Positions 4,614 through 39,664 of a stretch of 39,664 nucleotides of DNA are shown here, one piece after another (within the stretch, counting starts at the first letter, position 1; each line of letters begins with the position of its first letter). The notes beneath the pieces are model-generated. The model did not search any database. It was not told the origin of the DNA and saw only the letters and a program-made list of their open reading frames with translations. Location of the stretch: the NCBI GenBank assembly GCA_017476665.1, contig JAFUZJ010000009.1:1-39664 (forward strand). The letters are read 5' to 3'. The stretch is from Lachnospiraceae bacterium. GTDB taxonomy: Bacteria; Bacillota; Clostridia; Lachnospirales; Lachnospiraceae. Made by a program: the position numbers and the translations under genes.

Positions 4614-4905
4614 AAAAAAAGTCGCCTCCTTTTCGCACTTTTGTTCAAGCATTCCATGCCGTTCAGCATCCGGCATCTCCTGCTTTTAGTACGACAAGCG
4701 GTGACTGTACACTCTCCCGTGTGTTTCCTAAATCCTTAGCAACATAATCCGGACCGGTATCCCACACGTTGTTTCTGCTCTAGCGCAGACCATATCGTAC
4801 AGTGACTTGTCGTCAGTTTCCTAACTTGACATTCGCTCCACGGAAAACCTGATGATCATTGCTGACCACCAGCAACCTCACGCTTCATAGCTATCATGCC
4901 ACAGC
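4614..4905 (-). promoter_or_regulatory. Structured 5' leader of the S10 operon
   Basis: This stretch between the predicted start site and rpsJ has no long ORF but shows long-range pairing on the minus strand. ACGACAAG (4806-4813) pairs with CTTGTCGT (4691-4698), and ACTGTAC (4797-4803) pairs with GTACAGT (4704-4710), closing a domain of about 120 bases. Inside it are TCTGC/GCAGA and CGTGTG/CACACG hairpins. A separate TGCCG/CGGCA hairpin lies nearer rpsJ. This fits an r-protein autoregulatory leader by analogy with other S10 operons; the ligand cannot be named. Confidence 0.6.
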
Positions 4906-25391: not shown

Positions 25392-27101
25392 CTACATTTC
25401 CTCCGGGCACTTTACGCCTAACAATCCACAAGCATCCTTCAGGATACGCTGTACCATATCAACCACGAACAACCTAGCGTTACGGACATTCTCTTTCTCT
25501 TGCCGCAGAATCGGACACTCCTGATAAAACTGATTAAATGCCGCTGCCACGCTGATGATATACCGTGCAATGACAGATGGTTCATATTGCTCTGCAGCTC
25601 GCATTACTGCATCTGAGTATCCTGACAACGTTTTGATCAGTCCAAATGTAATGCCATCTGTAAGCGTTTCATAATCTACTTGCCCCATATCATTTCTGTC
25701 TGTGATAAATTGACTTTTCCGCAAAATACTCTTTGCCCGGGCATACGTATATTGCACATAAGGTCCGGTCGTTCCGTCGAAACTCAAAACATCTTTCCAT
25801 TTAAAATCCACGTTCTTCATCCGCTGATGGAACAGATCATGGAAAATGACTGCACCCACTCCTACTTTTTGCGCCACCTCCTCCTGATTTGATAAGGTAG
25901 GATTCTTTTCATGTATCAATTCTGCCGCCCGTTTTACCGCCTCATTTAAGATATCCTCCGCATAGATAATGTTCCCGTTTCGCGTGGACAGTTTTGCCCC
26001 ATCCAAACTGACCAACCCATAGGGAATGTGCACCAGCCCATCATACCACTTATAGCCCATCAGCTCTATCGTCTTAAATACCTGCTTAAAGTGCAGGCTC
26101 TGCTCCAAACCCGTCACGTAGAGACACTTCTCAAAATCATACTGCTCTTTCCGATACAATATGGCGGCAATATCCCTGGAGTGATAAATGGATCCCCCAT
26201 CCTTTTTGGTGATCAGGCAAGGCGGCATATCATATGCCGACAGATCTACAATGTTCGCTCCTTGACTCTCTGTGAGCAAATTTTTTTTCTTCAGCTTTTC
26301 CACCAAAGCAGGAACCCGACTCCTGTAAAAGCTTTCTCCCAAATAGGAATCAAAGGAAATATCAAGCATCCGGTAAACCCGTTCAAATTCAACCATACTG
26401 ATTTCTTTGAACCAATTCCATATCTCCAATGCTTCCTTGTCATCCTGTTCCATTTTTACAAACCATGCCCGCGCCTCATCTATGAGCTCCGGATGATTTT
26501 CCGCTTCCGCATTAAATTTGATGTATATGGCAAGCAGCTCATCAATCCCTTTCTCTTCCACCCGCTCCCTGCTGCTCCATTTCTTATACGCAACGATCAG
26601 TTTGCCGAACTGTGTCCCCCAATCACCCAAATGATTGATCCGAACCACCTGATACCCCAACTTGTCATAAATCTTATAAATGGAGTTTCCGATGATAGTG
26701 GTCCGCAGATGTCCCACATGAAAATTCTTAGCAATGTTGGGTGAAGAATAATCCATACAGATGGTCTTACCCACACCGATTTTTTCTATGGCAAAATCCT
26801 CAAGCTGCAATTGTTCCAAACAATTTTGAACATACACTCCCCTATTGAGATAGATATTGCAATATCCGCCTACCTGCTCCATTTTCTGTATGCTGAGTTC
26901 TTCCTGCTTTGCAGACAGCAATTGCTTGATTTCCTCCGCAATAACTGCAGGGCTCTTATGGAGTAATTTTGCAAAAGGAAAACACGGAATTGCATAATCG
27001 CCCATTTTGCTGTCCGGCGGGATTTCGATCAGGTCTGACACCTGCTCCGGACTGCATTCTCCAATAAACTCTGCAACATACTGACCGATCTCTTTTTTCA
27101 T
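25392..27101 (-). CDS. argS: Arginyl-tRNA synthetase, class Ia
   Basis: Charges tRNA-Arg with arginine. The 569-residue length is normal. The N-terminal ArgS-specific domain is followed by SSPNIAKNFHVGHLRTTIIG, where HVGH (residues 128-131) is the HIGH signature. The KMSKS-like site is KLSTRNGN, as is usual for ArgS with its relaxed loop. The C-terminal anticodon-binding domain contains YVQYTYARAKSILRK. AAAAGGAGGCAATACC precedes the ATG. Upstream are a T-rich terminator, a competing hairpin and an Arg-codon-rich leader ORF, so expression should rise when Arg-tRNA is short. Whether it is the only argS of the genome cannot be told. Confidence 0.95.
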   Translation of the reverse strand: MKKEIGQYVAEFIGECSPEQVSDLIEIPPDSKMGDYAIPCFPFAKLLHKSPAVIAEEIKQLLSAKQEELSIQKMEQVGGYCNIYLNRGVYVQNCLEQLQLEDFAIEKIGVGKTICMDYSSPNIAKNFHVGHLRTTIIGNSIYKIYDKLGYQVVRINHLGDWGTQFGKLIVAYKKWSSRERVEEKGIDELLAIYIKFNAEAENHPELIDEARAWFVKMEQDDKEALEIWNWFKEISMVEFERVYRMLDISFDSYLGESFYRSRVPALVEKLKKKNLLTESQGANIVDLSAYDMPPCLITKKDGGSIYHSRDIAAILYRKEQYDFEKCLYVTGLEQSLHFKQVFKTIELMGYKWYDGLVHIPYGLVSLDGAKLSTRNGNIIYAEDILNEAVKRAAELIHEKNPTLSNQEEVAQKVGVGAVIFHDLFHQRMKNVDFKWKDVLSFDGTTGPYVQYTYARAKSILRKSQFITDRNDMGQVDYETLTDGITFGLIKTLSGYSDAVMRAAEQYEPSVIARYIISVAAAFNQFYQECPILRQEKENVRNARLFVVDMVQRILKDACGLLGVKCPEEM

Positions 27102-27125: not shown

Positions 27126-27174
27126 AAAAAAAGAACCGCAATAGATATAGCCTGTGCTAAATCATTACGGTTCT
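27126..27174 (-). terminator. Attenuator terminator of argS
   Basis: On the minus strand AGAACCGTAAT (27174-27164) pairs with ATTGCGGTTCT (27142-27132), with one G-T pair, followed by seven T. It lies about 25 bases before the argS ATG and would stop transcription unless the antiterminator forms. Confidence 0.88.
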
Positions 27175-27210
27175 GCATAGTTCAGCATATTGAAACTATC
27201 AACAGCACCG
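27168..27210 (-). promoter_or_regulatory. Antiterminator hairpin of the argS leader
   Basis: CGGTGCTG pairs with CAGAACCG (one mismatch) and, inside it, ATAGTT pairs with AACTAT. The 3' arm contains AGAACCG, the 5' arm of the terminator, so the two structures exclude each other. Confidence 0.75.
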
Positions 27211-27306
27211 CACGGCAAACAAGACGTTTAGCTCTTGTAACCATGCGGAAAATCTGCAAAATTACAAGAGCGAACGTCTTCTCTGTCTGCGTCTTAAACT
27301 GTTGAT
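27198..27306 (-). promoter_or_regulatory. Competing (protector) hairpin of the argS leader
   Basis: An outer pair ATCAACAG (27306-27299, inside the leader ORF) with CTGTTGAT (27205-27198) surrounds a strong stem. The stem pairs AAGACGTT with AACGTCTT and GCTCTTGTAA with TTACAAGAGC (27280-27262 with 27240-27221). The outer 3' arm overlaps the antiterminator 5' arm. A ribosome stalled on the Arg codons would block this structure and allow antitermination. Confidence 0.8.
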
Positions 27307-27321
27307 CAGTAATGTGTTCAT
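27262..27321 (-). CDS. Arginine-rich leader peptide of argS
   Basis: A 19-residue ORF, MNTLLINSLRRRQRRRSLL, with a GAAAGGATG site before its ATG at 27321. Six of seven consecutive codons (10 to 16) are Arg (AGA CGC AGA CAG AGA AGA CGT). The stop codon lies in the 5' arm of the protector stem. Slow translation when Arg-tRNA is low should switch the leader to the antiterminator. No T-box core motif (GGTGGNACCGCG-like) is present, so this is a trp-type attenuator rather than a T-box. The promoter is 44 bases upstream. The peptide itself probably has no function. Confidence 0.85.
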   Translation of the reverse strand: MNTLLINSLRRRQRRRSLL

Positions 27322-27364
27322 GGAATACATCCTTTCATAATTGATCTTCTTAAATAATACGGTC

Positions 27365-27393
27365 AGTATACAACGTTTGTTAAAAGTATGCAA
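27365..27393 (-). promoter_or_regulatory. Promoter of the argS leader and argS
   Basis: TTGCAT (27393-27388) and TATACT (27370-27365) are 17 bases apart on the minus strand. Transcription would begin near 27358, about 37 bases before the leader ATG. Confidence 0.75.
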
Positions 27394-28547: not shown

Positions 28548-29168
28548 TCAACATAAAAAGAGTCTCTTTAACTCTGATAAATGATTTACTTCTTTCTCTG
28601 GCATTTCTTCTTCATTGATTCTCCACAATCCACCAAATCCTTGTTTAATCCACACGGTATGCATCCCAATTCTCTTGGCCGGCACGATGTCATTATCTAT
28701 TCTATCTCCAATCATAACTGCATTTTCCGGCTTGCATCCGCTTCGTTCTAATGCAATCTGAAAAATCTTTGGATTTGGTTTAGATACACCTTCCTCTGCA
28801 GATGCAACTACTAAATCCACATATTTCAATATTCCATGTTGCTCCAAACGGCTTGCCGTTCCAAAAGATTGATTTGCAATCACACCAATTTTATATTTCT
28901 GTCTTAAAATTTCTAAGCATTCCATCGCATCTGAATAAAGTTCTTCCTCTTCCAAATACCTGTTTAGCGCCGGAATACCATACATTTTGGCAAGTTCTAA
29001 GTCACCTTTTTTATTTTCTTTGTAGAAACGAATTGCCATATCATATATTTTCCCGTAGGATTCTCCCGTTGCATCAGCAATATCATAAAATATATGCTTA
29101 TAAACTTTTTCTTCATTTATCAACGTAGAACCAACATCAAAAAACAGCCATTCTATATTTCTAAACAT
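28548..29168 (-). CDS. HAD-superfamily hydrolase coupled to jetD
   Basis: A 206-residue HAD hydrolase (MFRNIEWLFFDVGSTLINEEK). Motif I is DVGST, with Gly at the second Asp position usual in phosphatases (DxD). Motif II is VIANQS, the motif III Lys is in GVSKPNPKIF, and motif IV is MIGDRIDND. The cap domain is of the short helical type. The ATG overlaps the 3' end of jetD by eight bases with GAGGTGCTATGGAGT upstream, so it is translated as part of the Wadjet operon. HAD proteins are not core Wadjet components; whether it takes part in defence is open. Confidence 0.82.
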   Translation of the reverse strand: MFRNIEWLFFDVGSTLINEEKVYKHIFYDIADATGESYGKIYDMAIRFYKENKKGDLELAKMYGIPALNRYLEEEELYSDAMECLEILRQKYKIGVIANQSFGTASRLEQHGILKYVDLVVASAEEGVSKPNPKIFQIALERSGCKPENAVMIGDRIDNDIVPAKRIGMHTVWIKQGFGGLWRINEEEMPEKEVNHLSELKRLFLC

Positions 29169-30465
29169 ACTCCATAGCACCTCTGCTTGTTTGTCGAACA
29201 CACTCCTGCTCAAGCTTCACATCATGCTCTAACATATACTGAATGGTTTCCCGCCACTGCGTGGACTCTTTCGCCAAGGCTTCCAATCTTTTTCTGTCGC
29301 TTCCGCTAAGCTTCTTCCCATATTTTTCGTACTGCATGATAGTATCCAGATCCATGTGGTATGCCACAAACGGTATTCCGGTTTTCTTCTGAAGATCTCT
29401 TAAAATAGCAAAACCTCCCGCATCGATATCCCCGAAGTGCCAATACTGCACATCCGGCAATGCCTGATAGATTTCTTTCAACAACCGTCTTCTGACACTA
29501 TTGTGATAACCTCCCAAATAAATGATCAGGCAATCCTGCTCTTTCCAACGAAAAAAAGTCGTGAGGTTTTCTATCGTAAGCACCTTCTTTATCTTTGAAA
29601 GCTCTGCAAAGCGAACAGCCGAGATATCCTCCCCAGACAATCCGATTCCCTGATGAAACCTGTCTAGATGAATCATTTCATCTCCCAGCATGATTCCGGC
29701 ATTTCCCTTAAAATACACATAGTTCGGCGTGTGGTAAATGCCATGTTCCGCCAGAATCTCATCATCATCCGTTTCAGAAAAACCTTTCTGAAATTTCCGA
29801 AATATTCCGGCGACCTGATGCTCCACACTCTCAAAATATTTAGAATCTTGAAAATGTCTGACAGAAAACTCTCTGACATAACAGGCTTCTTTATTCTGCT
29901 CCACAAAACGGACAGCCTGCAAAAGCCGGCGTGTAGCATCCGTTTTGGTCAGATCGATATATTCCTTCACTGTCTGGTGACTGCACAGCCGGGATAGAAG
30001 ATACTCTGCAAATTTATGTGCTACTGTTTCAGACAACGGCACTATATCTTCCCCGCAAAAATGTGCTGGTGTATGACCTGCCGCTTTGGAAATATCAGTT
30101 GACAATTGATCCAGATACTCCGTGAGCAGCGCAATATTCTTCTGCTCCAGCTCATTCTTCGGCACCCTTCCCAAAACGGAATAGATCTCATCCACCCGGT
30201 CTGTATTCATACGGACTCTCTCGATCTGATGGTCCCGCTTCTTATTTTTCCAGAGAATCTCCACAAACTCTTTTTCTTCCAGTGCCTTCATCAGTATATG
30301 GATTGTTTCATATTCCAATGTGCTTTCGTCAAAATATTGCGGCAGATTTTTCTTGGTAAGAACAAAGTCTATATGAACCGTCCGCTTGTTTTCTCCGATT
30401 GAAAGCAGACTGTTCTCGTAGGAATCCAGCAGGGCGTTCAGAATTTTATGATCATATCGAACCAT
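29161..30465 (-). CDS. jetD: Wadjet system nuclease subunit JetD (DUF2220/TOPRIM-like)
   Basis: JetD is the nuclease that cuts circular DNA after loop extrusion by JetABC. The start is ATG 30465 (MVRYDHKILNALLDSYENSL), with GGAGAGGTACATCA upstream, overlapping jetC by 14 bases. The N-terminal part is helical (DUF3322-like). The C-terminal DUF2220 domain shows the TOPRIM-like acidic residues in TIENLTTFF and FGDIDAGGFAILRDL. The 434-residue length fits JetD. Its gene order after jetA, jetB and jetC is the standard Wadjet order. It is followed by a coupled HAD gene. Confidence 0.9.
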   Translation of the reverse strand: MVRYDHKILNALLDSYENSLLSIGENKRTVHIDFVLTKKNLPQYFDESTLEYETIHILMKALEEKEFVEILWKNKKRDHQIERVRMNTDRVDEIYSVLGRVPKNELEQKNIALLTEYLDQLSTDISKAAGHTPAHFCGEDIVPLSETVAHKFAEYLLSRLCSHQTVKEYIDLTKTDATRRLLQAVRFVEQNKEACYVREFSVRHFQDSKYFESVEHQVAGIFRKFQKGFSETDDDEILAEHGIYHTPNYVYFKGNAGIMLGDEMIHLDRFHQGIGLSGEDISAVRFAELSKIKKVLTIENLTTFFRWKEQDCLIIYLGGYHNSVRRRLLKEIYQALPDVQYWHFGDIDAGGFAILRDLQKKTGIPFVAYHMDLDTIMQYEKYGKKLSGSDRKRLEALAKESTQWRETIQYMLEHDVKLEQECVRQTSRGAMEYV

Positions 30466-33400
30466 TGATGTACCTCTCCACAAAGCTCACTTTCTCATCT
30501 GTCATAACCAGAAGCGTCTCCTCCACCGCCGGGCTGATATACTGGATCTTATCCGGCGGAGCTGCGATCAAAATCTGCAAGGGCAGCTTGCGCAGGAACT
30601 GAAGCACACCGCCAATTCTTTCATCATCCATATTGTTGAAGGCCTCGTCAAACATGACAAGCCCAACCGCTTCTCCGCCGATATTATTGCGATAGAGCTG
30701 CACAAAGGAAGCTGCCACCGTCACATAAAAAGGCGTCTGCGTTTCACCGCCGCTCTTTTCCTCACAGACCTTGGAATATAGGGAATAGTTGTTGTCACTG
30801 TGCCAAATGCGGATATCATAATCCATATAGGTCCGATAGTCCGTAAATTCATCCAACGCCTTTGCCGTGTTGTCATTGTCCAGCGCCAGACGTTCAAACA
30901 ACTCCTCAATCACTGCTTTATGCGTCTCATGAAAAATGCCGCTGAAAATAGACTCCCCCTGTGTCGCATTGAAATCATCCATGATCATTTCATAGTATTG
31001 ACGGTACTTTTTACTGGGCATATACAAAAATTCATAGCGTTCATTACTGAACAGGATGTCCTGAAGCGCCTGGTTCAGATTCTTGAATTCGCTTTGTGCA
31101 GTCTTCATGTTCTCCTGCAATTTTGAGAGGAACTGCTCTCGGAATTCTTCTTCTGCCGCCTGTCTCGCACTTTCTACCTTCTCCTCATACTGTAGCAGTT
31201 CGGAGTCCTTTAATTTTACAAATTCAGTCTCAAAGTCTGGATAACCCTCCATAGATGCCGCTGCGCCAAAATCATGCGCTGTCTTATACTCCGTCATAGC
31301 TTCCTTCATGGCATATTCCGAATTGCCTATGACAGTCTGGTTCGCCTTGCGTGCTTTTGTATAATTATCCTTAAACTCCGATAAGGATCTCTCAGCGATT
31401 CTCTTTTCATATTCTTTATCCCACGAAATGCTCTGTGTGCCTGCTTTTGTTCCCATTTCGCGATAATAGACAGTTCGGGTGTCCAAATCTGCCTCCCGCA
31501 GTTTTAGTTGTTCCTTATTTGTGAAAATTTTTTGCTCCGTCTTACCGATTGTCCGATCCAATCCGCTGTACTGTTCCATAAGCTCTGCCAATATTTTCTC
31601 TAGCGCAGATAACTGAATTTGCTTCTGTAGCATGTTGGAATTCTTCTCCAGAGTAGCAATATTATCCTTACAGTTCTGTATCTCCGTCCCATTTTGGCGT
31701 AGCTCTGCCAGAACATCAATGCGATACTTAATATCAGTATCATATTCAATTGCAAGCGGTTCCAGCACCGACTCCATTGCAGTAAGTCTCTCCGTCAGTC
31801 CTTTCATCTCCTCCTTCAACGCACTGATTTTTCCTTTTGTCTGCTCCAACTGAACTTTTATCGCATTCTGCCCAATATAGGGTGTTTCAAAAATTTCCGG
31901 TTTGATGGCATTGGCCACGTGGTTTTGGTAACGCATGCATTCTCTGGTGATCGCTGTCTTATGTTTTTTCAGCTCCGGATAGGTGTCACACATCATAACC
32001 TTCCCCAAGATCATATTGATATAGCGTTTGGCAAATTTGTTCTTTGAGGTGACTACTGTGGCAAGAGACATCTCCGGTGCCGTATCATACTCCTCCAACT
32101 TCTGCGTATTGATCAGACCGACTCCAAACGCCTTCCTTTCTCTGCGCAAATTGTCATAGGTTCCCAATGCAATGTCAAAATTTTCCGGTTCAACAAGAAT
32201 ATAAAAACGCTGCGTGTTTAAATAGCCTTCCACTGCGTTACGCCAGGAATCATCCGTAATCTCCAAAAGCTCACATAAAATTCTGGGTGCCGGCGTTCTT
32301 CCAATGCGGTTGAACTCATCCCGAATCACTGTCATCACCCGTTCTACCTCCGGAGGATAGGAAAACTTTTTCCTCATGAGATTTTCCAGTTTCAGATTCA
32401 ATTCCTGCCTCTCGTGCTCCAATTGCCGAACCTGTTCTGAGACTTCCGCTCTCTTTAAGATTAGCTTATTTCTCATCTCCTCCTTGTATGTAATCACTTG
32501 CTGAAGATTATTTTTCACATCTGAAAGCAACTCAATTTTTTCCAGATTGCCTAAATATTCATAATATGTCCGCACGGAATCATCGACATCCTTAACTTCC
32601 AGTAATTTTTTTGCCTGTTCCCTGGCCTTACTTACACTCTTCACCAAATCTTTCTTTTCGTCCAAAAGCTCCGTGTGCTTTAGTTGAAGCTCCCGCAGTT
32701 TCTTTTCCTGTTCATCTTTCGCGATAAAATCTTTATCGCTTATCAGCTCCGTTCTGAGATCATCCCTGATCTTCTGTTTCTCCTCCTGCTCTTTTCTGAC
32801 TGCCAATAATGCTTTATTATGCTCTTCAAGACGATGCTCATCAGCGCGCACACTGTCTGTCAGGATTCGGATATCCTCCTGTGTCAGATCTGCCTCGATC
32901 CGCGCCAGAAAGTATTCATACATCCTGTCTTTCCCAAGACCATCCACCACAGTTTCATGTGCCTTTGCTATTTTGTCCAGCTTCCCGATACGCACTTTCA
33001 CATCTTCCAATGTTCTCTGCAAATCCTGGTAAGACCGCACATTTTCCCTGAGCATATCAATGTTGACTTCTTTTTCATCCAGCACATAGGAGTATACAAA
33101 ATCCTTGATATCGTCAATGGGCCTAAATGCCAACGCCTTCGGTATCAGACGGAAAAATTTATCCTCCAGCCTTCCGAAGCGGTTTTTGATCATGGACTTT
33201 GCCTCTTTCTCCGTACTGCACCACTGCTTGATCACCTTTGCATTCGTAGTACGGAACTGGTTGATGGACTTGGGCGCCCTTCCCTGAAAGAAAAGATCAT
33301 CCTCCAGTCTCTGTCCGTCTATCAGGTAACGGACCGTTTTCTCCTGTCCCTCCGAAGCAGAATCCACCACAGCGCCCACAATAAAATATTTATCGCGTTT

Positions 33401-33694
33401 TTCCTCATAAAATTCCAAGGCCACATGCGCGCTGATCTCACCGCTTCTCTCATATGGTCTGTTTTCCTTCCCTGTTTTGCACCGGATATACCCTGTCAGC
33501 TTTCGCTTTCCGTTCTCATGTGCAGCTTTATTAAAATGATTCGTAGAACAGGTCACCACAAATTGTATGGCATCTAACAGTGTAGACTTCCCTGCGCCGT
33601 TTTCTCCGGAAATCAGGGTGGAATCCTCAAAATCGACATAGGTATTCGTAAAACGATGCCAGTTAATCAGTTTCACTCTCATCAATTTCTTCAT
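30452..33694 (-). CDS. jetC: Wadjet SMC-like ATPase JetC (MukB/SbcC-like)
   Basis: JetC is the SMC-type motor that, with JetA and JetB, extrudes DNA loops and recognises small circular plasmids. The start is ATG 33694 (MKKLMRVKLINWHRFTNTYV), with GGGGGAG upstream; the longer frame overlaps jetB without a site. Walker A is GENGAGKST at residues 30-38. Long coiled coils flank a hinge region around SWRNAVEGYLNTQRFY. The C-terminus has the signature SGGETQTPFYV and Walker B GLVMFDEAFNNMDDER. The length of about 1,080 residues is typical. It overlaps jetB by 32 bases and jetD by 14. Confidence 0.93.
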   Translation of the reverse strand: MKKLMRVKLINWHRFTNTYVDFEDSTLISGENGAGKSTLLDAIQFVVTCSTNHFNKAAHENGKRKLTGYIRCKTGKENRPYERSGEISAHVALEFYEEKRDKYFIVGAVVDSASEGQEKTVRYLIDGQRLEDDLFFQGRAPKSINQFRTTNAKVIKQWCSTEKEAKSMIKNRFGRLEDKFFRLIPKALAFRPIDDIKDFVYSYVLDEKEVNIDMLRENVRSYQDLQRTLEDVKVRIGKLDKIAKAHETVVDGLGKDRMYEYFLARIEADLTQEDIRILTDSVRADEHRLEEHNKALLAVRKEQEEKQKIRDDLRTELISDKDFIAKDEQEKKLRELQLKHTELLDEKKDLVKSVSKAREQAKKLLEVKDVDDSVRTYYEYLGNLEKIELLSDVKNNLQQVITYKEEMRNKLILKRAEVSEQVRQLEHERQELNLKLENLMRKKFSYPPEVERVMTVIRDEFNRIGRTPAPRILCELLEITDDSWRNAVEGYLNTQRFYILVEPENFDIALGTYDNLRRERKAFGVGLINTQKLEEYDTAPEMSLATVVTSKNKFAKRYINMILGKVMMCDTYPELKKHKTAITRECMRYQNHVANAIKPEIFETPYIGQNAIKVQLEQTKGKISALKEEMKGLTERLTAMESVLEPLAIEYDTDIKYRIDVLAELRQNGTEIQNCKDNIATLEKNSNMLQKQIQLSALEKILAELMEQYSGLDRTIGKTEQKIFTNKEQLKLREADLDTRTVYYREMGTKAGTQSISWDKEYEKRIAERSLSEFKDNYTKARKANQTVIGNSEYAMKEAMTEYKTAHDFGAAASMEGYPDFETEFVKLKDSELLQYEEKVESARQAAEEEFREQFLSKLQENMKTAQSEFKNLNQALQDILFSNERYEFLYMPSKKYRQYYEMIMDDFNATQGESIFSGIFHETHKAVIEELFERLALDNDNTAKALDEFTDYRTYMDYDIRIWHSDNNYSLYSKVCEEKSGGETQTPFYVTVAASFVQLYRNNIGGEAVGLVMFDEAFNNMDDERIGGVLQFLRKLPLQILIAAPPDKIQYISPAVEETLLVMTDEKVSFVERYINGSI

Positions 33695-34277
33695 TTTCCT
33701 TCTCCCCCTTCCGATAAATTTCCAGCTTTTCATACGCCTGCTTAATGTCTTCCACACGCACTGCCATCAAAATAGAATCAAAAATCAAAATTCTGCTGTC
33801 CTCATTGGTCAGATCACGATCCAATGTCTCAATCAATTGAAAACGCCTGAAGGTACTGATTGCATTCCGTAATGTCGTCTTGTCAATCATTTTATCCCGG
33901 ATCTTTAAACTTAAGAATTTATCGTGAATGTCTCCGACATTTACAATCACCTCGTCCGACACAGATAACTCCCTTCTCTTTTCATCATACAGAATCCTCA
34001 GGATCAGCAGAATCACCGATTCAAAAAGCTTGAGGTTGTATCTGTTATAATTCAGCGGATTGGTCAGTTGAATCACCCCATACCCCTCATTGATCTCTAA
34101 CCGATATCCCATAAGAGACAGATAATCCGAGAACTTTTCGCGGTATTTAATCACAAAATAATAGTCTGCTTTATTTGTTTCATTCCGTTTGCATAAAAAA
34201 CAGCTGGACAACAATCGGTTACATATTCTTGTAAATTCCGCTTTATCCTTCTGTAACATGCCCTCCAGATAATCCAT
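33663..34277 (-). CDS. jetB: Wadjet subunit JetB (MukE-like, DUF4194)
   Basis: JetB is the MukE/KITE-like partner that binds the kleisin JetA in the loop-extruding complex. The 204-residue product starts MDYLEGMLQKDKAEFTRICN and contains a winged-helix-like core. The GYGVIQLTNPLNYNRYNLKL segment and the TLRNAISTFRRFQLIETLD part fit DUF4194. The C-terminus is an acidic tail (KENEEIDESETD). Its ATG lies two bases after the jetA stop and its end overlaps jetC. The assignment rests on size, order and motif feel rather than on a unique signature. Confidence 0.85.
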   Translation of the reverse strand: MDYLEGMLQKDKAEFTRICNRLLSSCFLCKRNETNKADYYFVIKYREKFSDYLSLMGYRLEINEGYGVIQLTNPLNYNRYNLKLFESVILLILRILYDEKRRELSVSDEVIVNVGDIHDKFLSLKIRDKMIDKTTLRNAISTFRRFQLIETLDRDLTNEDSRILIFDSILMAVRVEDIKQAYEKLEIYRKGEKENEEIDESETD

Positions 34278-34279
34278 CC

Positions 34280-35839
34280 CTATTTTGGCTCCTTCCTGAA
34301 AATTTCAAAATCCTGAAAGCGATATCCCGCCCGTGCTCTGTATACCGATCGTTCACTCTGTGTCAGCTGTTTCTGTGTCAAATGATTCTGTTTCGACTGT
34401 TCCTGCACATGCTGTTCCTGTGTCAAATTTTCCCGCGATGACTGCGCCCCTTGTACGGTTCTGTCTTTTTCCTCTGTAGGCACAATAATCGAATATTTCA
34501 TATTTTTTCTCTGTCCGTACAGGCGGATGTAGATCAGCTTTACAAAATCCTCCACTGTATCAAGCGGCAGTTGTGATGCCATAATTTTCTGTCTGTCCCC
34601 TAACTGCTGCTCCACATATGTCTCAATTCGTTCGGGGCTCAATACCCGGGCCAGTTTCTCCATCATGTGTTTTATTTTTTCATTCCGCAGTGCCAGATCT
34701 ACATCCTCGTCGGAAATAGCCGTAGGCATAAATGATTTTTTACCCTCAATCGGCGTATAGAGGGATTTTTCATCTATCACGGAAACAGTGTAAAGCCGGA
34801 TCAGCTCGTCCATAAATTCAATCCTGTAAATTCCTGACAGATCCATATTTTCTGCTAAAATCCGGTCACTCATACCGGACAAGAGCTCCTTTAACTGTCC
34901 TCTAACATCTTCGCCCCCGATCAGATAAAATTTGGCACGGTTGATCGCCGCACGTTGATATTGTGTATTTTTGTGATTGATTTCAGACAGAATGTCATCC
35001 ATGTTGTGAAAGGCTTCCACCACCTGATGAATATAATAATATGTCAGTTCCCTTGCGTCCTCTTTGGAAATTTCTCTGATCCCGGCAAGCTCTTCGCTGG
35101 CCTTTTCTATATATTTCGAATTTCTGCTCTTAGCCTCAAGCCTCTCCACAATCTCCGGCCTGAACTTTGACACGTTGTCGGAAGTGAGCAGACGATGATA
35201 TGCCTTGTCCACAATATTTTCAATGTAATCGTTGAACAAAACATTCATGATCTCCGCAGGCGTCTTATACTTTGTGAGATCGTCAATATAATTTTTGATA
35301 CTGGAGCTTAAGTTTTTCAACCCCGTAATCAGCATATCCGTATTTTCTACAATAGAAAGAAGCACTACACCCGGATTTTCTGTGTTTGTCCTCACCAATG
35401 TATAGATGGTATAGATATATCCCTGATATTCAATGCGCTTTCCCTCGGCAATTTCCAACAGCGTCTTGATCACCTTGACAGCATGTTCCTTGAAATTCAC
35501 TCGCTGCACATAGCTCTTGTCCGTCTCAATGTCGATCCAACCGTAAGCCTCCAGCTTGCGAAGCATCCAGTTCGCCTGATCCCTGGCGGATTTTCCCGCT
35601 ATTTCCTCCTCTAAAAGATTGTCTCTTGTCTCTAATAAATTGCCCTTTGTCTCTTTGATATCTGCGGCCTGTGTCTGTTCAAAATAATACTGTAATTCCT
35701 CCACAAGCACATCTCTTTCCACGCCAAAAGAAAGCTGATGATCCATGACGGAAAACAGCTTGCAGATACATTCCCAATATACGGTTTTATTCGGGGAAGC
35801 GAGTGGAACAAAGAAGTTCTCTCCGACAATGTGGTACAA
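34280..35839 (-). CDS. jetA: Wadjet subunit JetA (MukF/kleisin-like, DUF5716-like; type II)
   Basis: JetA is the kleisin-like subunit. The 519-residue product starts at a TTG (35839), seven bases after AAGGAG; the next residues are YHIVGENFFVPLASPNKTVY. N-terminal winged-helix region (about 1-110) includes RDQANWMLRKLEAYGWIDIE, then a helical middle part and a Gln-rich C-terminal linker (about 455-500, QEQSKQNHLTQKQLTQ). The sequence resembles DUF5716, which marks type II Wadjet as I recall it, rather than DUF3375 of type I. It is the first gene of the operon and has its own promoter 65 bases upstream. Confidence 0.82.
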   Translation of the reverse strand: MYHIVGENFFVPLASPNKTVYWECICKLFSVMDHQLSFGVERDVLVEELQYYFEQTQAADIKETKGNLLETRDNLLEEEIAGKSARDQANWMLRKLEAYGWIDIETDKSYVQRVNFKEHAVKVIKTLLEIAEGKRIEYQGYIYTIYTLVRTNTENPGVVLLSIVENTDMLITGLKNLSSSIKNYIDDLTKYKTPAEIMNVLFNDYIENIVDKAYHRLLTSDNVSKFRPEIVERLEAKSRNSKYIEKASEELAGIREISKEDARELTYYYIHQVVEAFHNMDDILSEINHKNTQYQRAAINRAKFYLIGGEDVRGQLKELLSGMSDRILAENMDLSGIYRIEFMDELIRLYTVSVIDEKSLYTPIEGKKSFMPTAISDEDVDLALRNEKIKHMMEKLARVLSPERIETYVEQQLGDRQKIMASQLPLDTVEDFVKLIYIRLYGQRKNMKYSIIVPTEEKDRTVQGAQSSRENLTQEQHVQEQSKQNHLTQKQLTQSERSVYRARAGYRFQDFEIFRKEPK

Positions 35840-36013: not shown

Positions 36014-36218
36014 CCGCCAATCGAGTAGGGGGTAATGGAATCACTCTACTCACTGCGTTGGACGCGCCCGGCAAGGTCAGGATAATACCTTGCGCATAAA
36101 AATGGTTGGGAGTTTTATCCGCCAATAATGGGGAACCTCCCCATCCGCTGATGGACCCGGTCTTTCGACCAATCCAAAGATGTGAAGCATCACAGGGAAG
36201 GTGATAAAACCTTCCCTG
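36014..36218 (-). other. Hairpin-dense block upstream of jetA, possible RNA element or intron remnant
   Basis: The block contains several inverted repeats. They are CAGGGAAGGT/ACCTTCCCTG (36193-36218), GGTC-TTTC-GACC (36159-36170, a GAAA tetraloop on the minus strand), TGGGG/CCCCA (36129-36143), CAAGGT/ACCTTG (36072-36092) and GCG/CGC. On the minus strand it ends with CCCCCTACTCGATT. The last ten bases of that, CTACTCGATT, are identical to the end of the group II intron at 39471-39480, and GAGTAG/CTACTC pairs there like an intron domain VI. A domain V was not found. The 92-codon open frame across it looks non-coding. Confidence 0.4.
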
Positions 36219-39471: not shown

Positions 39472-39664
39472 ATCGAGTAGGAGGTAGGTGATTATTTCAC
39501 CTACCGACCTCTCACACCACCGTACGTACCGTTCGGTATACGGCGGTTCAATCAACTTAACAAGTAACACACTTTGCAGTGTAGTAGTCTAACATGGAGA
39601 TTTGTCCGAATTCGGCTAATCTCTTATTGTTTATGGCTTGATGAACATCCCAACTTCTTGCAGG
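39472..39664 (-). mobile_element. Group II intron, 3' end (domains V and VI, maturase tail)
   Basis: On the minus strand a domain V hairpin is clear at 39549-39508: ACCGCCGTA pairs with TACGGTGGT around TACC-GAAC-GGTA with a CG bulge. Domain VI follows at 39505-39483 (GGTAGGTGA, AATAA, TCACCTACC) and the intron ends near CCTACTCGAT at 39472. The maturase ORF ends just before domain V. The 5' end is beyond the window. These introns are mobile ribozymes that move by retrohoming. Confidence 0.88.
39557..39664 (-). CDS. ltrA: Group II intron reverse transcriptase/maturase, C-terminal fragment
   Basis: The 35 visible codons include ARSWDVHQAINNKRLAEFGQ and end ISMLDYYTAKCVTC before the TAA. The frame is open to the window edge. 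Position directly before domain V supports an intron-encoded reverse transcriptase/maturase, which helps splicing and reverse-splices the intron into DNA. Too little is visible to tell whether it carries an endonuclease domain or is active. Confidence 0.78.
   Translation of the reverse strand, partial: PARSWDVHQAINNKRLAEFGQISMLDYYTAKCVTC

Follow-up and report, generated by a model that had tools for sequence, protein, structure and literature searches.

A candidate arginine-codon attenuator upstream of a spare arginyl-tRNA synthetase gene in Lachnospiraceae

An attenuator upstream of argS2, the gene of an auxiliary arginyl-tRNA synthetase, is confirmed as an observation in the DNA of this Lachnospiraceae bacterium (the window, i.e. 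the whole stretch analysed, is 39,664 nucleotides long). In its most probable reading, to which we assign a probability of about 0.86, it is a ribosome-mediated transcription attenuator of the trp type that would hold argS2 off until charged Arg-tRNA becomes short. The same interpretation had been offered in the original prediction, and at the level of sequence comparison it is supported.

Parts of the element in the window

The element runs along the minus strand from 27393 to 27102, the strand on which all its parts had been reported. It comprises a promoter region, the leader ORF of 19 codons, helices that can form alternatively and, just ahead of argS2, an intrinsic terminator. Its features are the following:

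25392..27101, minus strand: argS2, auxiliary arginyl-tRNA synthetase, 569 aa (TIGR00456, 496.9 bits, cut-off 261.65)
27354..27383, minus strand: candidate promoter TTAACA-18-TATTAT (10/12 consensus bases)
27365-27393, minus strand: overlapping alternative promoter TTGCAT-17-TATACT (8/12 consensus bases)
27262..27321, minus strand: leader ORF, 19 codons plus stop, peptide MNTLLINSLRRRQRRRSLL, Arg at codons 10-12 and 14-16 (kept in 33/33 distinct relatives)
27299..27306, minus strand: P1a 5' arm ATCAACAG, leader codons 5-8 (covaries with its partner)
27198..27205, minus strand: P1a 3' arm CTGTTGAT, also part of the antiterminator (covaries with the 5' arm)
27273..27280, minus strand: P1b 5' arm AAGACGTT, Arg codons 15-16 (fold and pairing in relatives)
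27221..27228, minus strand: P1b 3' arm AACGTCTT (fold and pairing in relatives)
27262..27271, minus strand: P1c 5' arm GCTCTTGTAA, end of the leader ORF and stop (fold and pairing in relatives)
27231..27240, minus strand: P1c 3' arm TTACAAGAGC (fold and pairing in relatives)
27241..27248, minus strand: P2 5' arm CCGCATGG (98.9% of cells paired)
27208..27215, minus strand: P2 3' arm CCGTGCGG, overlapping the antiterminator 5' arm (pairing in relatives)
27194..27212, minus strand: antiterminator 5' arm TGCGGTGCTGTTGATAGTT (96.4% of cells paired, nearly invariant)
27166..27182, minus strand: antiterminator 3' arm AACTATGCAGAACCGTA, of which AGAACCGTA is common to the terminator (pairing; three-strand change in L279 and L282)
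27126..27174, minus strand: intrinsic terminator AGAACCGTAAT...ATTGCGGTTCT plus T run, hairpin 27174-27132 (98.1% of cells paired in 33 leaders)

Six Arg codons lie within codons 10-16 of the leader ORF, as originally described. Of 315 ORFs in the whole window that start with ATG and encode 12-24 aa, only this one reaches such a density (at least six Arg in seven codons); the listing counts it twice, owing to two in-frame ATGs. An ORF of this kind occurs in 0/5000 shuffles of the 300-nt upstream region. Hence, a stray ORF was rejected and the Arg-rich ORF is not a product of chance.

Concerning the transcription start point, the two overlapping promoter candidates leave it ambiguous, and the distance found in relatives would favour TTAACA-18-TATTAT. 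This promoter begins 62 nt ahead of the leader ATG; in 20/32 leaders, the one in the window included, the box with the best score begins 57-63 nt ahead of it. The originally proposed TTGCAT-17-TATACT is not listed by the promoter scan and starts at 72 nt. Promoter scores are only modestly above those of shuffles, being at least 9 in 18/32 leaders vs 30% of shuffles.

The 243-nt RNA folds with -83.7 kcal/mol (z = -7.24), better than all 200 shuffles, and its protector, antiterminator and T-tailed terminator are mutually exclusive. The protector hairpin had been traced to ATCAACAG:CTGTTGAT, a pairing that stands, but it extends further, through AAGACGTT:AACGTCTT and GCTCTTGTAA:TTACAAGAGC. The antiterminator that shares a protector segment and a terminator arm is likewise present, and is longer than had been described (in full, TGCGGT.CTGT.ATAGTT with AACTAT.GCAG.ACCGTA). 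An additional helix, P2, in which CCGCATGG pairs with CCGTGCGG on the same antiterminator arm, had been overlooked; the terminator lies just before argS2, where it had been placed. A CTTGTTT-like linker between P1b and P2 (window 27221-27214; A2 columns 108-115) is nearly invariant in argS leaders, recognisable in the Asp and ABC leaders described below and largely without a partner in the structure model.

At gathering thresholds Rfam gives no match over the element and no T-box anywhere in the window, in agreement with the lack of a T-box core noted originally, so neither a T-box, with its core and specifier stem, nor a known riboswitch is recognised there. Among other argS loci, 0/19 primary ones and 0/22 leaderless relatives carry a T-box core by motif, and the Rfam T-box search agrees for the 19 primary loci and for 20 of the 22 leaderless ones. 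Other Rfam matches in the window, all on the minus strand, are an S10-Clostridia leader (4807-4896), a DUF3800-XI RNA (36130-36176) and a group II intron fragment (39472-39548).

Conservation, covariation and folding under stalling

The leader precedes 33/33 distinct argS copies of the argS2 type (at least 59% identity, upstream DNA present; 27 distinct leaders from the first sets and six from a wider argS search), and is absent from all 22 argS loci at 54-58% identity. Before these counts L013 and L053, whose contigs begin within argS, were dropped, as were L032, which lacks the 5' part of argS, the duplicate rows L033, L044, L045, L048 and L112, and L051 and L125, matched by a loose regex only; argS copies of G279, G429 and G315, at 55-56% identity and without a locus, were left out as well. 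L186, L211, L236, L237 and L239 appear in the tree (38 leader rows) and stand outside the 33-leader statistics.

All 33 copies keep ORF, stems and terminator, none having lost ORF or stems around a retained terminator. Each holds a short ORF, predicted to be translated, with a sensor-codon run, which begins at codon 10 in 32/33 leaders; Arg codon use is AGA 112, CGT 32, CGC 26, CGA 6 and AGG 2. The reading frame is preserved through 3-nt indels and the distance from the ATG to the Arg run is kept. As judged from sequence, then, the parts, their conservation, the covariation of P1a and a constant AUG-to-sensor distance are all present. A highly conserved RNA, with a possible pseudoknot of P1c with P2, could also be expected of a translation-independent switch, with ArgRS, tRNA or arginine binding the RNA directly; the missing Rfam match over the element, together with the retained frame and distance of the ORF, makes this very improbable.

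Across the 33 leaders, 94.7% of 1453 cells in P1a, P1b, P1c, P2 and the terminator are paired (31-53% in slid-register controls), and both sides change at 14 pairs vs a shuffled mean of 6.3, which 0/500 shuffles bring up to the observed value. P1a contributes most clearly: matched duplexes give -10.04 vs -8.14 for permuted ones (sd 0.31), and 0/2000 permutations are as low. For P1b (-9.71 vs -9.23, sd 0.16) and P1c (-12.52 vs -11.58, sd 0.31) the lowest permutations are lower still, and for P2 the test is not significant (-12.75 vs -12.33, sd 0.24, some permutations as low); P2 shows both-side changes at 2 pairs in a wider set that includes other members of the scaffold. In L049 and L118 the AACAG:CUGUU pairs are swapped for pairs of the AUUAGUAA:UUACUGAU type, the peptide being altered there. 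Of the three stems in which the original prediction proposed to look for covariation, the antiterminator is nearly invariant in argS leaders, and these lend it no covariation support. L279 and L282, two Asp leaders, show a joint change of three strands (AUGUGG / CCACAU / GUGUGG or AUGUGG). This is the only result used from a three-arm search of 53 leaders, which returned no triple for L011, L054, L280 and L281 and chose unlikely segments in some others (e.g. L012, L212, L241, L246).

It should be noted that RNA pairing might itself produce an Arg run as a by-product, AGACG codons matching ACGTCT, in which case the element would be a terminator or pause with a non-sensing ORF. Arg codons 15-16 do lie inside P1b, and pairing therefore constrains some of the Arg codons. 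Codons 10-12, however, lie outside the modelled stems and yet are Arg in nearly all leaders, codon 11 varies between CGC, CGA and CGT, and in L173 the P1b arms change together as the residues become Lys/His, hence pairing does not force Arg. We consider a mere by-product scarcely credible, and the sensing ORF remains the preferred reading.

The mechanism that we propose for the attenuator involves two states. With the ribosome absent, or gone at the stop codon past the Arg run, the GCGGT.GCTGTT arm would be kept occupied by P1a (codons ~4-8), by P1b and P1c, to which codons near the stop contribute, and by P2, which the CCGCATGG segment forms on the same antiterminator arm, possibly as a second lock; the terminator would then form and transcription would stop before argS2. 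Stalling at Arg codons 10-14 would make the ribosome cover the 5' arm of P1a, and the freed GCTGTT arm would pair with ACAG.AACCGT, taking the terminator 5' arm and letting argS2 be transcribed. The signal would presumably be a shortage of Arg-tRNA.

The 33 leaders were folded as far as the antiterminator, either free or with an assumed ribosome footprint kept unpaired, in a model that leaves pseudoknots aside; the outcome is consistent with this switch. The median antiterminator probability is 0.00 in free RNA, 0.91, 0.82, 0.82, 0.80 and 0.79 with the A site at codons 10 to 14, respectively, and 0.00 again at codons 15, 16 and the stop. It is below 0.2 in 28/33 leaders when free and in 28/33 at the stop; a stall at codon 10 raises it above the free value in 31/33, and it exceeds 0.8 at one of codons 10-13 in 21/33. 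Comparison of the alternative states and covariation thus both speak for the originally suggested logic, in which a stalled ribosome would block the protector and let the antiterminator form. Opening by a stall and closing upon completion are properties of the computed folds, in which five leaders fail: L040, L043, L046, L054 and L116 stay off when stalled at codon 10 (0.00-0.10). Further misfits are partly on when free (L008, L012, L036, L049, L115; 0.51-0.77) or on at the stop codon (L009, L012, L049, L060, L115; 0.35-0.99). The switch is predicted to work in Butyrivibrio proteoclasticus P6B7 (L034; 0.01 free, 0.80 stalled), in contrast to Lacrimispora xylanisolvens DSM 3808 (L043), for which the fold model predicts none.

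The spare argS and its distribution

The original prediction had missed that the argS controlled here is a second copy, and that the primary argS and a leaderless sister clade lack the element. The genome of the window holds another argS (G000:C37:13927-15558) with 32% identity to argS2. Full-length argS2 occurs in 11/101 sampled genomes of the genus (65-100% identity), all 11 of which also match the other argS type; in G007 the argS2-type match is a contig-end fragment only. Outside the genus, primary argS and argS2 are both present in 9/9 leader-bearing genomes tested, and in total the primary argS is also held by 20/20 leader-bearing genomes tested, as expected for an inducible auxiliary synthetase. 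The sister clade has a single argS in 12/12 genomes tested, which correspond to 12 of the 22 leaderless argS loci; G997 (75% complete), the last of the 22 genomes in the argS copy test, gave no argS match. Among the genomes tested, the leader is thus restricted to those with a second argS (20/20 vs 0/12). A tree of 65 proteins places the 38 leader-bearing argS together, all on the same side of a branch supported at 100/99.

Leaders whose argS is lost or broken (L142, L153, L167, L185, L238) suggest that argS2 is frequently lost. Its benefit would presumably lie in conditions where the primary ArgRS is limiting or inhibited. An origin in a plasmid or phage element was rejected, as the leader of one relative (L060) has no blastn match at E <= 0.01 and one exact core pattern no viral-contig match. 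Upstream of the argS2 region, a Wadjet-type defence locus (window 29161-35839, minus strand) encodes JetA (PF18982), a DUF4194/MksE-like protein, an SbcC-like ATPase and JetD_C.

Recurrence of the scaffold and its meaning

The recurrence of the scaffold before other genes, also missed originally, emerged from covariance models R1, R2 and R3 run on whole genomes. At E <= 0.01, R1 matches 12/397 family genomes and 21/138 genus genomes, the window's own genome having a single copy. In the genus, argS comes next in 17/21 genomes (L171 ends just inside argS); in G095 (L167) the leader frame is disrupted and an argS start is followed by a different gene. In the family, argS follows in 8/12 genomes; in G107 (L142) no argS follows the leader, in G214 (L149) MNNVFVNSLERREEERRLL stands before a methyltransferase, and G263 and G301 give weak matches with no leader of the argS2 kind. 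A second copy in G443 (L153) also lacks an argS and lies close to BlaI-like and M56 genes. R2 at E <= 0.1 matches 24/392 order genomes (five at >=130 bits, the rest weak) and 31/396 more complete family genomes (nine at >=100 bits, the rest weak); L186 and L211 stand before argS, L185 before an argS cut after 29 codons, and L212 carries MKLSFANSIRRRFRYRLL directly before a GNAT. R3 matches 37/40 preselected genomes (E <= 0.05) and 10/15 genomes of one other genus (E <= 0.01).

Weak RNA-model matches (about 24-42 bits) were treated as background, and eight that were inspected (L151, L152, L187, L213, L214, L215, L216, L218) show no leader of the argS2 kind. True divergent members lie at 36-54 bits (L242 37.4, L245 35.9, L246 40.9, L241 45.1, L244 51.6, L240 53.9) and overlap with weak scores, so bits alone do not separate them and other weak matches may hide more. 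The numbers given for non-argS members are minima, since filters were stricter wherever a scan covered more than 40 genomes; reverse-strand echoes of true elements were ignored.

In L242 a leader MQNLSFMKLNRDDDR precedes the gene of a spare, non-discriminating AspRS (PRK05159, 540.8 bits, cut-off 353), here aspS2, and this protein finds a match in 33/100 family genomes. An Asn10-Arg11-Asp12-Asp13-Asp14 leader is present in 4/4 cases, L242 and its three closest copies at 64-74% identity (the loci bear paired ids, L242/L282, L249/L279, L250/L280 and L251/L281), so that the sensor codons are cognate to the gene here as with Arg and argS2. Ordinary AspRS copies show a T-box core by motif in 23/27 other loci examined, and the Rfam gathering score calls a T-box only at L254 among 20 AspRS loci; G123 and G144 hold both AspRS kinds, their ordinary copies with a T-box core. 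In stall folding, L279, L280, L281 and L282 give 0.00, 0.00, 0.71 and 0.06 when free, 0.25, 0.38, 0.96 and 0.46 at Asn10 and 0.22, 0.01, 0.96 and 0.37 at Asp12; at Asp12 two of the four barely respond, which supports a switch less than the argS leaders do.

Before GNAT enzymes, L173-L175 (G503, G522, G011) carry MNLRLTNNLKQRQRKHKFL or a near copy; in G505 a second copy (L176) carries MNTLFVNNSEQKEERKLL and is followed by a further GNAT-type ORF. Among NCBIfam models the L173 enzyme scores best with ArsN1b, at 150.7 bits, below the cut-off of 210. Gln, Lys and Arg codons precede the ArsN1/phosphinothricin-acetyltransferase-like GNAT in L173-L175. Gln at codons 11 and 13 of L173 and L174 would fit sensing of glutamine-synthetase inhibition; L175 has Gln10-Pro11 instead, against that fit, and the L173 antiterminator is predicted even in free RNA (0.92), against a simple switch.

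In the other genus mentioned, L227, L240, L241, L244, L245 and L246 precede an ABC-type ATPase and have hydrophobic leaders. L227 (G941; R2 match of 46.7 bits), whose ATPase is followed by a membrane-protein-like ORF without Pfam match, has Ile at codons 10-13; the other five are mixed, and most ABC leaders thus point to no one cognate amino acid. Stall folding opens the antiterminator in 6/6 at codons 7-9 and in 5/6 at codon 10 (L241 0.40).

Antibiotics arrest ribosomes on Arg-x-Arg motifs, as in the macrolide '+x(+)' arrest motif, and RRR is such a motif. The leader might then sense a drug-bound, slowed ribosome instead of Arg-tRNA, with the scaffold driving resistance-type genes. The GNAT acetyltransferases, methyltransferase and ABC ATPases behind non-argS members would suit this, and the bmrB leader of Bacillus subtilis offers a Firmicute precedent (PMC4191407). 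Against an antibiotic-stalling class (erm, msrD, bmrB type) speaks the match of codons and synthetase for argS2 and aspS2, as Asp runs ahead of AspRS would not be expected from drug arrest; by inspection, the L149 and L176 peptides also lack a +x+ motif. Drug sensing is, therefore, unlikely, and Arg-tRNA sensing remains the preferred reading for argS2.

For the scaffold as a whole we tentatively envisage, as a possibility short of even odds, a modular attenuator cassette of Lachnospiraceae, in which the sensor block near codon 10 is re-coded per downstream gene and the stems are compensated. Its members might form a joint defence regulon that responds, whenever one charged tRNA is depleted, by switching on a spare target or a detoxifying enzyme. 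Arg would then match the spare ArgRS and Asn/Asp the spare non-discriminating AspRS; possibly, Gln would match the ArsN1/phosphinothricin-acetyltransferase-like enzyme, Glu another acetyltransferase and Ile some exporters.

As to known systems, Vecchione and Sello reportedly described in 2010 an auxiliary, indolmycin-resistant TrpRS gene (trpRS1) of Streptomyces under ribosome-mediated transcription attenuation. It would resemble argS2 as a spare synthetase gene under attenuation, and differs in belonging to Actinobacteria and Trp and in a link to drug resistance, named in the title of that paper, which here is only a hypothesis. In the sections cited here, Seliverstov 2005 (PMC1262725) finds Firmicute synthetase genes mostly under T-boxes and none under classical attenuation; the Streptomyces trpS and leuS attenuators given there share leader peptide, antiterminator and terminator at a synthetase gene, in Actinobacteria. 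Closest in Firmicutes are the His leader peptides that Naville and Gautheret 2010 (PMC2965389) predicted in bacilli upstream of the hisS* and hisZ paralogues, so a leader peptide on a paralogue is not new in principle. These too combine a synthetase-family paralogue and a cognate-codon leader with a T-box on hisS; unlike the present leaders, they concern His, not Arg/Asp, and the cited part mentions no scaffold common to other genes. As far as the portions cited describe them, the Leu-rich ilv-leu attenuator of Staphylococcus aureus (PMC5794164) is a Firmicute codon-run leader with a terminator, on a biosynthetic operon for branched-chain amino acids; the bmrB leader of B. subtilis bmrCD is comparable to the ABC members in its ribosome-mediated transcription attenuation, its inducer being ribosome-targeting antibiotics and not a cognate amino acid (PMC4191407); and in Salmonella speF orf34 (PMC6386406) ribosome pausing at consecutive Arg leader codons selects the RNA structure, with Rho and RNase G as effectors and an ornithine decarboxylase gene as the target. 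No Arg- or Asp-codon attenuator on a synthetase gene appears among the open-access full-text matches listed, which does not prove absence and agrees with the original remark that an Arg attenuator on argS is not widely described. Leader-peptide attenuation is, hence, already known; what looks new is the specificity for Arg and Asp, the rule that the spare copy carries the leader, and the re-coding of one scaffold.

The argS2 leader would place ribosome-based sensing of charged tRNA beside the T-box at Firmicute synthetase genes, used on the spare copy in the genomes tested. Since the codons would name the amino acid whose charging is threatened, the scaffold leaders may be read as predictions of what each gene protects against. 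That of argS2 points to circumstances in which arginyl-tRNA synthetase is impaired, or to unknown inhibitors of it, and, if the defence-regulon reading is true, natural ArgRS and AspRS inhibitors would be implied in Lachnospiraceae habitats.
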